DNA from: Paracoccaceae bacterium
GTDB taxonomy: Bacteria > Pseudomonadota > Alphaproteobacteria > Rhodobacterales > Rhodobacteraceae
Length of the DNA stretch: 64,000 nt
Assembly: GCA_026706985.1 (NCBI GenBank)
Contig: JAPOXR010000061.1
Location: 45,145-109,144 of the forward strand
Reading direction: 5' to 3'
In this document: positions 35,228-46,621 of the stretch, piece after piece
How the letters are laid out: every line of letters starts with the position of its first letter
Position numbering within the stretch: position 1 is the first letter of the stretch
Notes under the pieces: model-generated
The model's input: the letters and a program-made list of their open reading frames with translations, nothing else
Told to the model about the DNA's origin: nothing
Database searches by the model: none
Program-made: the position numbers and the translations under genes

Positions 35228-35704
35228 TCAACCCCGTTCGCGAAGTAGGCGTGCCTGCTCACGCTGCCAGTCGCGCCGGCGTTGCAACTGTCGCTTGTCG
35301 ACCCGTTTGCGTCCCCGCGCGATGCCTATTTTCAATTTGGCAATTCCCTTATGGTTGAAAAACAACCGCATGGGAACCAGCGTGAATCCTTCGCGCTTAG
35401 TCGCCGACCAGAGCTTGGCGAGTTCCCGTTGGCGGACCAGGAGCTTACGCTTCCGCCGGTCATCATGGTTAAATGCGCTGGATTTCGAATACGGCGAGAT
35501 CGACCCGTTGATCAGCCATAATTCGCCGTCTTCAACCGCGGCATAACTCTCAACTATGGAAGCCTGGCCGGCGCGCAGGGATTTCACCTCTGAACCGACG
35601 AGAACCATACCGCATTCAATCTCATCCATGATCATGAAATCGAACCGGGCACGTCGGTTTTCAGCCACCACGCGAAAGTTTTTCTGCGTCGGTTTTTCCG
35701 CCAT
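35228..35704 (-). CDS. smpB: SsrA-binding protein
   Basis: [83 protein letters not shown]. Confidence 0.96.
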
Positions 35705-36197
35705 CACTCTGCCAGTCCCAACCAATACAACCACTTGCGCTCAATCAGAAGCTGCCCAATGACACAAGAATATTGCCGCCGGGTTTGACCCGATTTTCGA
35801 ACTACCGATGACGAAGGACAATTCGTGAGGCCTGGGACGGAACGACAATGGAACTCGAGCAACAAATGCCGATTTCACTGCCCTTTTGCCAGACAACCTC
35901 TGATCGAACCTCCTCCACAATACTGGCATCCGGCAAATGGCACTCAACATTCAGTGCTCGTGAATAGACGCCCTCATCGATTGCAAGCCACTATCATTGG
36001 ACACGCCGTGCTGTGTGAGCCGGTTCTGCCACGTATTCTGCCTCTTCTGAAATAACAACCAGTGTTGACGGCATCTTGCACATCCGGCGGTTGTCACACA
36101 GGCACCGCATCGTCAGCACTCAATAACTCCACATACAATCCTCGACTGCGAATAGCGCTTTGAGGCCTGCTTAAGCTTTTGCGGCACCAGCCTGTGT

Positions 36198-37091
36198 ATG
36201 ATACCATTTCGCGCAAATCTGAGGGAGGGAGGAGACACCTTGTTGCGACCTTTGGACAATCACATAAAGAGTCAGTTGACGCAGGGGCTCGTCGCAATCG
36301 GAGATAGGCTTGAGAGTGATGTGGTCACCATCATCAGCCCGATTGTTCCAGGGCTTGAGCTTCGATTACGCCAAGCCATCGAAGGGCTTCCAGAACACAA
36401 CAATGTCGTAACCGTCATCTTGGATACGCCCGGCGGAGTGGTCGAGGTCGTAGAACGGATGGTTAATGTGCTTCGGTCAGTGTATGAGGAAGTGATTGTC
36501 ATAGTGCCAGATCGAGCCATGTCTGCTGGCACGATTTTGGCACTGAGCGCTGACAGAATAATGATGGACCATCTGTCTTGTCTGGGACCGATTGACCCTC
36601 AGATCGAGAGAGACGGCAAATTGGTCCCGGCGCTGTCTTATCTGAATCAGTTCGAGAGATTGAACGAAAAGGCACAAAATGACCAATTGACTACAGCAGA
36701 ATATGCGTTGTTAAACAAATTGGATTTGGGAGAACTGTATCAATTCGAACAAGCGAGAGAATTGTCAATTGACCTGCTCATTAGATGGCTGACAAAGTAC
36801 AAGTTCAAAGACTGGAAATGGACAGAAACAAAAAGGAAAAAAGTCTCAATTGGCATGAAGGAGGAACGGGCTGGGGAGATAGCAGCATTGCTAAATGATC
36901 CTGAGAAGTGGCATTCTCATGGTCGTGCGATTGATGCGAAAACATTGCGTGAAGAAGTGAATCTAAAAATCGATAGTTTTGAAGAAAATGATGCGCTGTA
37001 CGCGGCAATTCGAGAATACTTTGAACTGCTTCGTGACTATATGCAACAAGGAAACCTCATCTCCTTCGTTCACACAAGGGAGTTCTTCTGA
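36198..37091 (+). CDS. SDH-type (serine dehydrogenase proteinase-like) ClpP/crotonase-fold serine protease
   Basis: NVVTVILDTPGGVVEVVERMVNVLR...VIVIVPDRAMSAGTILALSADRIMMDHLSCLGPIDPQI (candidate catalytic Ser in MSAGT). Confidence 0.82.
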   Translation: MIPFRANLREGGDTLLRPLDNHIKSQLTQGLVAIGDRLESDVVTIISPIVPGLELRLRQAIEGLPEHNNVVTVILDTPGGVVEVVERMVNVLRSVYEEVIVIVPDRAMSAGTILALSADRIMMDHLSCLGPIDPQIERDGKLVPALSYLNQFERLNEKAQNDQLTTAEYALLNKLDLGELYQFEQARELSIDLLIRWLTKYKFKDWKWTETKRKKVSIGMKEERAGEIAALLNDPEKWHSHGRAIDAKTLREEVNLKIDSFEENDALYAAIREYFELLRDYMQQGNLISFVHTREFF

Positions 37092-37092
37092 A

Positions 37093-37293
37093 ATGATCAA
37101 GGAAACAAGGTTCTTGCAGTTGAAAAAGGCCGAGATACTGAAACGCAACAAGAAAATTGATTCAAAGCTGGTCAACGCGCATGAAGGTCTTGAGCGTCAG
37201 CTAAAGAGAATTAGTGTAGAGATCAAACCGGAGTTCAAGTTAGAGCCTCCACTGGGCCGGGGGAGAATGCGATTGTCCAATAGAAACTATTGA
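37093..37293 (+). CDS. Small charged hypothetical protein immediately downstream of the SDH-type protease
   Basis: 66 aa, MIKETRFLQLKKAEILKRNKKIDSKLVNAHEGLERQLKRISVEIKPEFKLEPPLGRGRMRLSNRNY; starts 1 nt after the upstream stop. Confidence 0.55.
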   Translation: MIKETRFLQLKKAEILKRNKKIDSKLVNAHEGLERQLKRISVEIKPEFKLEPPLGRGRMRLSNRNY

Positions 37294-37453
37294 AGTCAAG
37301 AATGCATGGACGTGCAGTGACAGCGTTTTACTCAACCCCTTTCAATAATCCGCGTGTACATTGATTATCATTCAAATTTGGCACAACTTCCTTCCTCCAG
37401 CTAACCACAGTTCAGCATTCGACGTTTTCGCAGTTATTCACTAAACTCGGCTC

Positions 37454-40400
37454 ATGCGATTTCATGCCGATGGTCCCGCGATTCCTGACATTCTTCTGGA
37501 GCGCAGCGACGCCGGCCGTGTCGTGTTTCTCTGCGGTGCGGGTGTTTCCCTGTCATCCGGCATGCCCGACTTCGTCGGTCTTACCAAGCATGTAATCGAT
37601 TTCCTTGAGCCTCCCGAAGATTCCGACATCATGGCGGCATTCAAGCCGTGGCTTCACAACCAGCCAGGTCCAAAGGTGCCCTTGGACCAGATTTTCAACC
37701 TGCTGCATCAGGAATATGGAAGGAACGATGTCAACGTCCTTGTCACCGAACGGCTTACGGAAGGTCAGAGAGCAAGAGAATTCGCTCGTGAGCACGATCT
37801 GATCAAACGGATATCTTTCAGCCGGTCAGGTGTTCCCCAGATTGTCACCACTAACTTCGACAGGCTCTTCGAGACTGACGTTCCGGACACAATGGTAAAA
37901 CTTCATGTTCCGCCCGCGCTTCCTGACCTTGCCCATGGCGCATCGATAGAGGGCATAACCTACCTGCATGGTCGAATCGCGGAAGCGGACGCCGTTGAAC
38001 ACAGATATGTGCTAAGCAGTGCGGACCTTGGCCGCGCATACCTTTCGGAAGCATGGGCGACGAAGTTCATCAGGAACCTTTTAGGCCGGTACACGGTTGT
38101 TTTGGTCGGCTACCAGGCCGAAGACTCGCCGATCAAGTACCTGCTCCAGGGGCTGAACGAGGACGGAGAGCGTAACCGTTCACGACTCTACGTAATTGAC
38201 AAGGGTATGCCCGAAGAGATCGAGGCAAAATGGCGTGATCGCGGCGCGACGGCCATCGCATATGCGGATCATCCTCAACTGTGGCACACGATGGAAGCCT
38301 GGGCAGAACGCGCCGATGACCCGCGCGGCTGGAGAGCTTCAGTCATTTCGACCACGAAGCGAGATCCGAAGAGCATTGCCGCGCATGAACGAGGTCAGGT
38401 CGCGCACGTTCTGCGCACAGTACAGGGAGCGAAACTCCTTTCCCAAGCTGGGTCGGCAGTCCATCCCGAGTGGATATGCGTTCTCGATGCAGACGTTCGT
38501 TCCGCTGAACTGTACAGTGGTGCCGCCGATGGCAACAGGAGTTTCGATCCTTGGCTTGCCTACGGCCTTGACGATGACCGTCGGCGAGATCCGGGCAACG
38601 ATAACCTGCTTGTCTGGCGTCCAGGAGATGACAATCCGCACGAATTTCATCGGCTTGGGGGAAGACAGGCCGACGGCTCCATAGAGTCGCCCGCCAGGCT
38701 TGGGTATCTAATCACCTGGATCATGGAGTCAGTCCATAGCCCCGTTCTGGCCTGGTGGGCCATTCGACAGAACAGTCTTCACCCTTGCCAGCTTCATCGC
38801 ATTGATCATGAAATTTTATACAACAAGAATCTCCCGCGGAATGCGCGCCACGTCTGGAACCTAATCCTCGAACACCAACGCGACCTGAGGAATCACCTGT
38901 GGTTGGACGATAGCTGGTTTCACCTGAAGAACAGAATTGACGCTGAAGGTTGGAGCAACAGCGTTATCCGCGACTTCCGCCAAGCGTCCCGGCCCAGAGT
39001 GAAAATTCGGCCGCTGGTCGGACTCGGCAATGTCAAGCCGCCGACTGCGGGCTGGAGCGGCATCCAACTGCGCAACCTGGGCAGGGTCGAGCTGAAATTC
39101 CTAGAGACGCAAATTAACGATCTTGAGATTCCCGACACGGCGTTGCCCCAAGTGTTCAAGATCATGGAAGATCAGCTTGCCGTTGCGTCCGGGCTACTGG
39201 CAGATGTCGATCAAAGGTATTTCACGACGCCGACCTGCTACCCGAACCGGGAGGTGAATGGCGAAATGCGCCATTCCGAAGCCGCGGAATTCATGACGCA
39301 GTTCATTGAGTTGTTCGAAAGGCTCGTGGAATTGAGGCCCGAACTTGGCAGAGCCCACGCCATAACTTGGTCCGAGTCGGACAGATTCTATTTTCGCAAG
39401 CTCAAGCTGTTCGGGCTTTCAAAGGAGCGCATTTTCGAGGCCGATCAAGTGCTTCAGACAGTCTTGTCCTTCGATCAGGAAGCCTTTTGGGACAGTGAAA
39501 TCGCCCGCGAACTGCTGTTCCTACTCGTTGACAGATGGAAAGAGTTCTCGCTGGAAGGCAGGGCTCAGTTAGCCGAGCGTATCCTGAAGGGACCGGAGCA
39601 GCCCGACCACTGCCCGGATGAAAAGTTTCCGCGCCTGCGGAACGTATACGCGGCGCGCTATGGAAAGTACCTCGAATTGGAGGGCTGTGCATTGCCCAAA
39701 GATCACGAGTTAAGGCTTGCCAAGATCATCAACGAAATTCCGCAGTGGCACGACAGCTGGGCAACCGCGACGGTCACGGCATGGGGCGTTCACGTCGGCT
39801 GGGTTGGCATCAATACAGCACCGGACGTATTGACGAACCTCCCCATGAACGAGGTCGTTGCCAAAGCCATGGAAGTCTCGGACACAAAATTCGGTGACTT
39901 CACTGAAATGCAACCCTTCAAGGGGCTGGTCAAGAGGAGCCCACAAAGGGCACTTACCGCGCTGACGTCGGCAGGGAAAACGGGCGATCATCCAACGGAG
40001 TTGTGGTCTGCGATGATCGACGAGTTACCTGAAGATGCCTCACCTCGGCTAAAGCAGCAGTTCCTGCGCAGGATCGCGCGTCTGCCGCAAGACGTGATCG
40101 TTGAACTGCGGCATCCCTTGGGACGTTGGCTGAACGGGCAGCTTGCCTCTGCCATAGAACTGGACGAGAATCTGGCCTGGTCAGTATACGATCACGTGGT
40201 TGACAACATTCTCAGCGGTTGTGAAGAGGCCGGAAGTAGTAGTCGTGGAGACGTGCTCCTGAATGGCAAGGTCGTCCATCAGTCGCGGCGTACGCTCGAT
40301 CATGCGATCAACGCTCCCCTTGGAATGTGCACTGAAGCACTCTTCAAAGCGGTTCCCGGGGAAGCGCACGAAGCGGGATCCCTGATCCCCGATCACGTCA

Positions 40401-41242
40401 AGGCCCGTCTGGAACGACTTCTCTCGGCGTCGGGCGAAGGAGCGGATCACGCAGTCTCAGTGACGGCGAGCAAGCTCAACTGGATCATGCAGGTAGACCC
40501 AGAATGGACAAAGGAACGGCTGTTTCCCATGCTGGATTTCAACAACCCGGCCTCGGAACCGGCATGGAACGGCTTTCTCCATTCAAGAGAGCCCCCCTTG
40601 CCTGCGCTGGCGGCTCTCGTGAAGCCGTTGCTACTGAATCTCCATCCGTGGATCGACAGATTCACTTGGGGTGATGAACTCTCCGAAGTTGCAGGCGAGT
40701 GGCTCGGCTCAATGCGCATCTTCCGTCCAGATCAGCCTGACGGCCTCACGAAGAAGGAGATGCGGTCCGCTCTTCGGTCGATGTCCGATGACACCAGATG
40801 CCGGTTTATCCTATGGCTAGGGCTGGTCGGCGGGGACAACGATGATGGCTGGGCGAATCTTGTCGTTCCTTTCGTGGATACGGTTTGGCCAAGAGAACTG
40901 ATGTTCCGCACATCGTCGTCGGCACGGGCTTGGCTTCGCCTTCTCGAAAACACGGGCGACAGTTTTCCTGCCGTATATCCCGCCGTGAAAAAATTCCTGG
41001 CTCCGGTCGAACCGAACGGCTATCCGTTCTATCGGCTCACTCGCGGGACGGATGATGGTGAATCAATCACGACCCGCTTCCCCGAAGCAATGCTCGACCT
41101 GATGAATACCGTTACACCTGTAGTGGTACAGCATTTACCGTACAAATTGCCAGAGATTCTGGAAATGATCTCCGAATCTGATGAGTCGCTTACCTCCGAT
41201 CCCCGTTACCTGCGGCTGATAGATCTGGTTGAGCGAAGTTGA
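37454..41242 (+). CDS. Large SIR2-domain protein (1262 aa), candidate defence-associated sirtuin
   Basis: VVFLCGAGVSLSSGMPDFVGL; QIVTTNFDRLFE; ITYLHGRI; VVLVGYQAEDSPIKYLLQGL; then a ~950-aa C-terminal region without recognised motifs. Confidence 0.87.
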   Translation: MRFHADGPAIPDILLERSDAGRVVFLCGAGVSLSSGMPDFVGLTKHVIDFLEPPEDSDIMAAFKPWLHNQPGPKVPLDQIFNLLHQEYGRNDVNVLVTERLTEGQRAREFAREHDLIKRISFSRSGVPQIVTTNFDRLFETDVPDTMVKLHVPPALPDLAHGASIEGITYLHGRIAEADAVEHRYVLSSADLGRAYLSEAWATKFIRNLLGRYTVVLVGYQAEDSPIKYLLQGLNEDGERNRSRLYVIDKGMPEEIEAKWRDRGATAIAYADHPQLWHTMEAWAERADDPRGWRASVISTTKRDPKSIAAHERGQVAHVLRTVQGAKLLSQAGSAVHPEWICVLDADVRSAELYSGAADGNRSFDPWLAYGLDDDRRRDPGNDNLLVWRPGDDNPHEFHRLGGRQADGSIESPARLGYLITWIMESVHSPVLAWWAIRQNSLHPCQLHRIDHEILYNKNLPRNARHVWNLILEHQRDLRNHLWLDDSWFHLKNRIDAEGWSNSVIRDFRQASRPRVKIRPLVGLGNVKPPTAGWSGIQLRNLGRVELKFLETQINDLEIPDTALPQVFKIMEDQLAVASGLLADVDQRYFTTPTCYPNREVNGEMRHSEAAEFMTQFIELFERLVELRPELGRAHAITWSESDRFYFRKLKLFGLSKERIFEADQVLQTVLSFDQEAFWDSEIARELLFLLVDRWKEFSLEGRAQLAERILKGPEQPDHCPDEKFPRLRNVYAARYGKYLELEGCALPKDHELRLAKIINEIPQWHDSWATATVTAWGVHVGWVGINTAPDVLTNLPMNEVVAKAMEVSDTKFGDFTEMQPFKGLVKRSPQRALTALTSAGKTGDHPTELWSAMIDELPEDASPRLKQQFLRRIARLPQDVIVELRHPLGRWLNGQLASAIELDENLAWSVYDHVVDNILSGCEEAGSSSRGDVLLNGKVVHQSRRTLDHAINAPLGMCTEALFKAVPGEAHEAGSLIPDHVKARLERLLSASGEGADHAVSVTASKLNWIMQVDPEWTKERLFPMLDFNNPASEPAWNGFLHSREPPLPALAALVKPLLLNLHPWIDRFTWGDELSEVAGEWLGSMRIFRPDQPDGLTKKEMRSALRSMSDDTRCRFILWLGLVGGDNDDGWANLVVPFVDTVWPRELMFRTSSSARAWLRLLENTGDSFPAVYPAVKKFLAPVEPNGYPFYRLTRGTDDGESITTRFPEAMLDLMNTVTPVVVQHLPYKLPEILEMISESDESLTSDPRYLRLIDLVERS

Positions 41243-41584
41243 ACAAAGGAGCGCGAGAAATCAGCGTCGATGATGTATGCTGAGTATTTCTCACGCATCC
41301 ACTATGTGACGATATTGGAAATTGCAGGTGCTCGATCCTTGATGACGGCATTGGTGAGTAAAAAGGAAGGCAATACCCTCGGCACTTTCATTGCCGAAGT
41401 TTCAATATCCGCTAAGCCGCATTCAGGCGGGGACCCGGCGGCTGGGTCCAAATCGGTCTTCAGAAATATAGAAATTGGGCCGTAAAACCGCGCCAGGCAC
41501 CCAACTCCACTTGCCGCTCAAAAGCAATTTTCGGTGTCGCTGCACCAATGGTGCTCAGCTGTAGAATTGCCGGTTCGAATACGG

Positions 41585-42460
41585 TCAGTCAAGAATGCCC
41601 GCATGCCGCATCGCCGCTTTGATGCGGTCTTCGACAGGTTGGCTGACGGGAAGCAGCGGCAGACGCACCTCATTCGCACAGTGTCCGAGAACCGACAGCC
41701 CGTATTTGGCACCGGCGAGACCCGGTTCGGCGAAGATCGCTTCATGCAGCGGCAGCAGACGGTCCTGGAACTTCCTTGCCAGTGCGAAATCTCCCGCAAG
41801 CGTCGCATTTTGAAATTCGGCGCATAGTTTCGGCGCCACATTCGCCGTGACCGAGATACAGCCAACACCGCCATGCGCATTGAATCCGAGCGCCGAGGCA
41901 TCTTCTCCGGAAAGTTGAATGAAATCCTGACCGCAGCTTACACGTTGCTCCGAGACCCTGACGACATCGCCGGTGGCGTCTTTCACTCCGATGATTCTGG
42001 GCAATTCGGCGAGCCGTCCCATAATCTCCGGCTGCATATCCACAACCGAGCGGCCGGGTATATTGTAAATGATGATCGGGATGCCGGACTGATCGTGCAA
42101 TGTCTTGAAATGGCTGAACAAACCCTCCTGAGTCGGCTTATTGTAATAGGGTGTGACAACCAGGGCGGCATCGGCACCGACGGTTTCGGCAAAACATACC
42201 AACCGCAGCGCTTCCTCGGTTGAATTCGACCCGGCGCCGGCGATGACAGGAATACGCCCGGCCACCTTCTCGGTGACCGCCCGAATCACCTGCTCATGCT
42301 CCGCATGCGTCAGCGTCGGACTTTCGCCGGTGGTGCCAACCGGCACAACTCCATGGGAACCCTGTTCAATCTGCCATTCGACAAGCGCATCCAGGGCGGC
42401 GAAATCGACGCGCTGCCCGCAAAACGGCGTCACCAGAGCTGGCAATGATCCTTTGATCAT
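41585..42460 (-). CDS. dapA: 4-hydroxy-tetrahydrodipicolinate synthase
   Basis: [67 protein letters not shown]. Confidence 0.96.
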
Positions 42461-42581
42461 AATTCGATTTCCTGCAATTTCGGCTCTTGATCGGAAAATC
42501 ACAGACTAGCCTTGTCAATTCGGCTTGCCAAGACGCCCACTATAGCTAGATTCCGCCGAAAACGAGGTTTGGGCAGTCTTC

Positions 42582-44676: not shown

Positions 44677-46621
44677 CTTGACTTCAGACTTTTTCAAAGA
44701 CAACTTATTGAAAAAGCTTGACTGCTGCCCCGAAAGGGGCACTACAGCTGCGGATTTCCGGGGGGCTCAGGACTGTTTTCGGGGGCGGCCGCGCCGTTTT
44801 TGCCGCGTTTCGGCCCGCGGCGGCTCCGGCGGTTCGATCACGAACGGCCGGGCGGGCCATTTCAGGCCCAGCGTCCTGTAGATCTCCTTCGCGTCGGGCG
44901 GCGCGGCGTGCGGCAGGCCGTATTTTCCGCGCCCGCCCTTTCCGCTCAGCACGCTGAACTGCAGCTCGGCGAGCGCCCTGCGTATGCGGTCCGGGCTCAT
45001 CGGATTCCCGCGCGCCTCCAGGCGGCGGCGCAGATGCTGCAGGCAGCAGAAGGCCATGTAGCAGATGGCGATGTGGGCGCGGATCCGCCGCGGTTTCCAA
45101 TGGAACACCGGGCGGATCCTGAGATCGCTCTTGTTGGCCCGGAAGCAGGCCTCGATCTCGGAGAGCTTCCGGTACTGGGTGACCAGACCGCGCGGATCGG
45201 CGTCATCACAGCCCCAGGCCATGATCCCCCGCAGCCCGTCCCAGCGGGCCGCGGCGGCGATCTTCGCCTCGTTCAGCGTCACCCTGCCGTCCGGAAAGTC
45301 GAGAAAGCGCGCCACGCCGCGGCCGCACTGCGCGGCCGCGGTTCCGCTTCTTGCGAGGCGGGCCCGCAGCCTTTCGATCCGGCGGGCGCGGTCCCTCCCG
45401 TCCTTGCGGGCCCGCTTCGGCGAATGCGTGGCGATCAGCCGGCCGCCGCCGGTTTCGATTTCGCGCAGGCTCCCGGCGGATTCACCCCAGGGGGCGTAGC
45501 CCTCAGGGTCGAGAATCAGCCGTTTCTCGGCCGCGCTCCGGTTTTTCAGCCGCGCGCCGAGAATATACGGCGTGCCCCGCGCCCGGAGGGCGGCCTCGTC
45601 CGCGGCGCTGATCATGGCCGCGTCGGCGACCACGGTGAGCCGCGTCCCCGGAAGCCGGCTCTCCAGCCTCTCAAGGGCCGAGACCAGCGTTCCGCCCTCG
45701 TAGGCGTTGCCGGGGAACAGCTCGTATCCCACCGGCAGCCCCTCAGGGGTGATCAGGATGGCGAACAGAACCTGGACCCGGTGCGGCTTTCCGTCCTTGC
45801 TGTGCCCCCTGGCCCGCAGCCCGTCCTCCCGCCCGCTCTCAAAATGCAGGGTCGTGGTGTCGTGGAAGACCGCCGTCATCGGCCCGGGAAGCAGCGTCTC
45901 CGCCGCCCTGAGCGAGCTCTCGCGGATCTCGGCCGTCCTGGCGTCGTCAATCAGGTCCATGGTCCGGTACACATAGTCGAGGTTCAGCGGCAGGGCGCCG
46001 TGAGCGTCCAGCCCGCGCACCGCCGCCCTTTTCGACAGCGGCTGCGCGATCCGCGCCAGCGCCAGCTCCTTGACAATCCTGTTGGCGCTCATTCTGCGCG
46101 CCCCGAACAGCCTGTCCCAGCCGAATCCGCTGTAGACCGCCCCGAAGGCCTGCCGCGTCCCGGCCTCGACCCGCCCCCCGTGCCTGCAGTCGGTGATGTC
46201 GGCGCCGGCGGGCTGCGGATTCTCCGCCGCCCGCCGGGCGAGATCGGTCAGCCCGCCGAGCTCCCTGGCGGAGAACAGCGGCTCCGTGCCGCAGCCCCGG
46301 AGCTCCTCCATCACGACCCTGGCGACGCCCTCGAGCGCCTCCAGCCCGGCACCGCTGTGCGCGGTTCCGACATGCCGCAGTACCTGCTGGCGGACCTTCG
46401 CGCCGATCCGCTCCGACCTGACGATCTGGACCTTGGTCCGGGTTTCGTCGATTCGCTTGCGCCTGATGAACATGCCCCCTCATGCCCCGAAAGCACACCC
46501 TTGTCAAGCCAAAAATTTACCAAGGGCACTACATTTGAAAAACAGCGGCCCAAAAGACACAACCCGTTGATCAACAACGATTCCCAAAAAACGGATCCGG
46601 TCAGAAAGGTATGAAGTCAAG
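44677..46621 (-). mobile_element. Insertion sequence, IS1634-type, ~1.95 kb
   Basis: Terminal inverted repeats CTTGACTTCAgACtTTT / CTTGACTTCAtACcTTT; one transposase ORF; flanked by 170-bp direct repeats. Confidence 0.88.
44767..46473 (-). CDS. IS1634-type (IS4-superfamily, DDE) transposase
   Basis: 568 aa; MFIRRKRIDETRTKVQIVRSERIGAKVRQQVLRHVG; FHDTTTLHFES; RLTVVADAAMISA; LSEIEACFRANKSDLRIRPVFHW...IRAHIAICYMAF. Confidence 0.9.
   Translation of the reverse strand: MFIRRKRIDETRTKVQIVRSERIGAKVRQQVLRHVGTAHSGAGLEALEGVARVVMEELRGCGTEPLFSARELGGLTDLARRAAENPQPAGADITDCRHGGRVEAGTRQAFGAVYSGFGWDRLFGARRMSANRIVKELALARIAQPLSKRAAVRGLDAHGALPLNLDYVYRTMDLIDDARTAEIRESSLRAAETLLPGPMTAVFHDTTTLHFESGREDGLRARGHSKDGKPHRVQVLFAILITPEGLPVGYELFPGNAYEGGTLVSALERLESRLPGTRLTVVADAAMISAADEAALRARGTPYILGARLKNRSAAEKRLILDPEGYAPWGESAGSLREIETGGGRLIATHSPKRARKDGRDRARRIERLRARLARSGTAAAQCGRGVARFLDFPDGRVTLNEAKIAAAARWDGLRGIMAWGCDDADPRGLVTQYRKLSEIEACFRANKSDLRIRPVFHWKPRRIRAHIAICYMAFCCLQHLRRRLEARGNPMSPDRIRRALAELQFSVLSGKGGRGKYGLPHAAPPDAKEIYRTLGLKWPARPFVIEPPEPPRAETRQKRRGRPRKQS

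Follow-up and report, generated by a model that had tools for sequence, protein, structure and literature searches.

A diverged sister of Dsr1 inserted between smpB and dapA in a Paracoccaceae bacterium: a probable single-gene anti-phage NADase

Several bacterial defence proteins are built on a SIR2 domain, and four of them are the natural points of reference for the gene described here. DSR2 of Bacillus subtilis 29R, a protein of 1005 residues, combines a SIR2 domain bearing the NADase-type asparagine and histidine pair with helical repeats that follow it, and its trigger is a phage tail tube protein. The SIR2 fold also occurs in KomC, a SIR2 protein of 264 residues, and in ThsA, but these two are without a long helical sensor and are components of multi-gene systems. 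Dsr1 (NF041818 in NCBIfam, also represented in PADLOC) is encoded by a single gene, carries its SIR2 domain at the N-terminus and occurs on plasmids. The named DSR1 (PMC10952713) and DSR2 (PMC10973363) act on phages, and according to a review, cells in which DSR1 inhibits phage do not die (PMC10952713). ThsA bears a SLOG ligand domain, and in NADase assays the N133/H171 double mutant of DSR2 is the inactive control (PMC10973363).

The gene lies in a 64,000-nucleotide stretch of Paracoccaceae DNA, referred to below as the window (Table 1). The original prediction saw in it a SIR2 protein and candidate NADase, and the coordinates of the reading frame, its length and the four SIR2 motifs were exactly as it gave them; the motifs begin at residues 28 (GAGVS), 132 (TTNFD), 171 (LHG) and 219 (GY). 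The frame of 1262 codons is not due to chance, because its relatives are up to 61% identical along the whole length. In a Pfam search, residues 129–268 match SIR2_2 (PF13289, E 9.5e-15) rather than the deacylase family SIR2, and no other family exceeds its own cut-off anywhere in the protein. A match to STAT_int (E 0.003, under its cut-off) was judged a chance hit of a helical protein. The SIR2 part (residues 1–290) contains one cysteine, C27, and therefore no Cys4 zinc module, as had been claimed. The pair N134/H172 corresponds to N133/H171 of DSR2 (PMC10973363) and is invariant in an alignment of the query with 72 full-length relatives. Further invariant positions among these 73 proteins include C27, G28, G30, S32, T132–D136, H172, G219, Y220 and D224, and many of those in the C-terminus are tryptophans.

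Table 1. Features of the inserted locus, in window coordinates
Feature	Coordinates	Strand	Basis
Inserted stretch between smpB (35228-35734) and dapA (41585-42502)	35735..41584	.	smpB next to dapA in three genomes of the same genus
ClpP-like SDH-type protease gene; co-inserted, probably separate cargo	36198..37091	+	PF01972; beside no relative examined
66-aa ORF directly 3' of the ClpP-like gene	37093..37293	+	Sequence
DSR1-like SIR2 protein gene, 1262 aa	37454..41242	+	ORF, full-length relatives, Dsr1 models
SIR2_2 NADase-type domain, N-terminal, residues 1-290	37454..38323	+	PF13289; residue 1-700 model with best PDB matches DSR2, also ThsA and KomC
N134 codon (TTNFD), predicted catalytic residue	37853..37855	+	Invariant in 73 sequences; counterpart of DSR2 N133
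H172 codon (LHG), predicted catalytic residue	37967..37969	+	Invariant in 73 sequences; counterpart of DSR2 H171
Helical-repeat region of the C-terminus (proposed phage sensor), residues 292-1262	38327..41239	+	Structure model; homology to Dsr1 C-terminus

The long C-terminus had been described as free of any recognisable motif, which is wrong: it matches Dsr1 in both NCBIfam and PADLOC. Against the query protein, the NCBIfam Dsr1 model scores 370 bits (E 2.5e-110), its positions 481–1261 (of 1263) aligning with residues 463–1258, and when the model was searched against the genome, its positions 1–310 were matched by the gene as well. Two PADLOC Dsr1 models agree (E 4.6e-83 and E 4.3e-80). The family in which the C-terminus falls is thus one of defence, not the non-defence family that would have spoken against such a role. 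Like Dsr1, the protein carries TTN.D and LHG in a SIR2 domain at its N-terminus, and it has a homologous C-terminal half, a similar length and no conserved partner gene. It differs from Dsr1 in being only about 23% identical to the one named member with which it was compared, in scoring 370 bits where the curated equivalog cut-off of NF041818 is 1400 (nothing in its own genome exceeds that value) and in belonging to a separate clade. A FastTree phylogeny of 93 proteins, rooted at the midpoint and with some long branches, places all six named Dsr1 proteins on a side of 11 rows and the query on the other, of 82 rows, the branch between them having a support of 100; the annotated members of this sister group are called merely “SIR2 family protein” by NCBI. 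From these sequence comparisons the query can be placed as a diverged sister of Dsr1, outside the named Dsr1 clade.

For structural comparison, the protein was modelled as two overlapping parts, residues 1–700 and residues 292–1262. A PDB fold search with the first model (pLDDT 90, pTM 0.85) returned DSR2 entries at the top (E 4.3e-11), followed by ThsA and KomC. Superposed alone, the SIR2 part gives a target TM of about 0.70 on DSR2; for KomC the target TM is 0.71. The whole chain superposes badly on DSR2 (query TM about 0.3, rmsd above 20 Å). The second model is nearly all helix (mean pLDDT 87, pTM 0.57) and its PDB matches, which have low TM-scores, are generic HEAT proteins, among them importins and CAND1; DSR2 is absent from the matches listed for it. 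The C-terminus is modelled as a HEAT-like helical solenoid. In sequence, too, the likeness to DSR2 chains is best in the SIR2 part (profile positions 18–56), and no Dsr2 model appears among the PADLOC matches at E≤1. The protein therefore has a DSR2-like layout, while the sequence of its C-terminus is related to Dsr1. The predicted DSR-like architecture holds in both respects, with a C-terminus homologous to Dsr1 and a SIR2 half folded like that of DSR2, KomC and ThsA, and the suggested comparison with DSR1 and DSR2 ends in a diverged sister of Dsr1 that is neither curated Dsr1 nor DSR2. The suggested kinship with DUF4020 proteins was dropped, there being no Pfam match to DUF4020 at E≤1.

Relatives of the protein are numerous and mobile. 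A scan of genome contigs confirmed at least 521, and among the best 80 of these 72 are intact, with lengths of 1226–1280 residues. By tblastn, 60 plasmid records carry relatives, all of them less than 60% identical to the query, and in 29 at least 80% of the query is covered in one place. One such relative, on an Enterobacter hormaechei plasmid (L042:6001-9419), is about 50% identical, broken, and flanked by IS3-family insertions. Within the query's own class, matches occur in 15 of 385 genomes, weak ones counted in. The close relatives, at 53–61% identity, come from intermixed alpha-, beta- and gammaproteobacteria, and the wider sister group includes Acidobacteriota, Gemmatimonadota, Myxococcota and others, a distribution that fits horizontal spread. 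An alignment-based scan found relatives on 25 IMG/VR contigs; a narrower single-sequence scan of viral contigs found none, nor were there any in a collection of phage records. PHROG 15208, a phage-database family of unknown function with 1275 positions, matches the query (E 5.9e-51). Among 24 close sequences, the C-terminus is more variable than the SIR2 part (1.19 vs 0.69 bits), which would agree with a sensor under pressure and would also fit relaxed constraint. The genome also holds, on contig C37 (L002:1486-1926), what is left of a second Dsr1-type sirtuin: roughly its first 140 residues, stopping before TTNFD, beside an AbiEii gene.

The SIR2 gene was acquired by insertion, since smpB and dapA are neighbours in three genomes of the same genus, where their matches lie 10–41 bp apart; here they are separated by about 5.85 kb. 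The left part of the insert has a GC content of 48–50%, against about 58–60% across most of the window. The insert as a whole holds the genes for the ClpP-like protease and the SIR2 protein, together with the 66-aa ORF, which has no PHROG match. No convincing direct or inverted repeats were found inside either junction region, each scanned singly, and a promoter scan of the gap upstream of the SIR2 gene gave nothing on the + strand. A few kilobases from the insertion, a transposase-like ORF (window 44767-46473) lies in DNA with a GC content of 70%.

Homologues are located among defence genes, as they should be if the gene is one of defence. On plasmids, annotated neighbours include Shedu and an integrase in one record, and type I restriction-modification, retron HNH and RelB/YafQ genes in another; VapC with an integrase, ParD/RelE, and a DUF3427 protein with a relaxase are found in others. 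Next to relatives on genome contigs, 141 ORFs match 105 PADLOC families at E≤1e-10, compared with 8 for 124 control ORFs taken from arbitrary places of five other genomes, a tally of families and not of genes (one methyltransferase hits many models) that gives the direction of the difference and not its size. The commonest shared neighbour family, a KAP NTPase, is present at 6 of 80 loci. With no conserved neighbour, the gene behaves as a single-gene system. In a Roseobacter subclade, the DSR1-like gene has its start codon where a 660-aa KAP NTPase gene (L051:6019-8001, PADLOC candidate PDC-S49) ends; the NTPase gene holds the same position in L052, L054, L065 and L093 and is broken in L056, whereas L026 and L036, from the same clade, lack it. 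The two genes could possibly form a two-gene variant.

Taken with the domain content and the invariant catalytic pair, these data make it very probable that the gene encodes a single-gene, phage-triggered NADase, an anti-phage protein of the Dsr1 kind. By analogy with DSR2 and Dsr1, the protein would wait as an inactive oligomer until a phage-made protein binds the long C-terminal helical solenoid. This binding would switch on the N-terminal SIR2 domain, which through N134 and H172 would hydrolyse NAD+ and so stop phage multiplication. As DSR1 is reported to block phage without killing (PMC10952713), the outcome here need not be cell death. A bolder proposal, which we consider rather unlikely, is that the sister clade forms a separate defence family, sensing a phage component unlike the targets of DSR1 and DSR2 and working in some Roseobacters with a translationally coupled KAP NTPase.

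Could the trigger instead come from an invading plasmid or another mobile element? The same NADase mechanism would then answer to a protein or nucleic acid of that element, and many plasmid relatives do adjoin partition, toxin-antitoxin and relaxase genes, which would fit mobile-element competition. This is nevertheless improbable, for it is against phages that the named DSR1 and DSR2 act, and relatives are found on IMG/VR contigs and beside restriction-modification genes as well. A two-gene system, in which the upstream ClpP-like protease and the SIR2 protein act together, the protease for instance as activator or sensor, is suggested by the common strand and the shared inserted segment, yet it is very improbable: the two genes are about 360 bp apart with the small ORF between them, and no ClpP-like gene was found near any of the more than 80 relatives examined. 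The protease has relatives in other genomes: of 289 from the class, 38 hold scattered matches. It also matches PHROG 11747. Absent beside the relatives and with kin of its own elsewhere, it is probably separate cargo and not part of the system.

The remaining reading, that of an ordinary sirtuin acting as an NAD+-dependent protein deacylase, can draw on the shared SIR2 motifs and on weak matches to CobB-type models across some 20 residues. It is barely credible when the only SIR2 family found is PF13289 and not PF02146, the zinc module is missing, the fold search leads to NADase effectors, and the distribution is mobile and patchy.

The gene thus extends the known Dsr1 kind of defence by an outlying member, which is not surprising in principle. 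What it brings to light is how far the Dsr1-type architecture reaches beyond curated Dsr1, taking in a large and mobile sister group in several phyla that has so far gone under a generic name. Recognition targets are not reported in the Dsr1 literature examined, and for finding them this sister group offers many candidate sensors.
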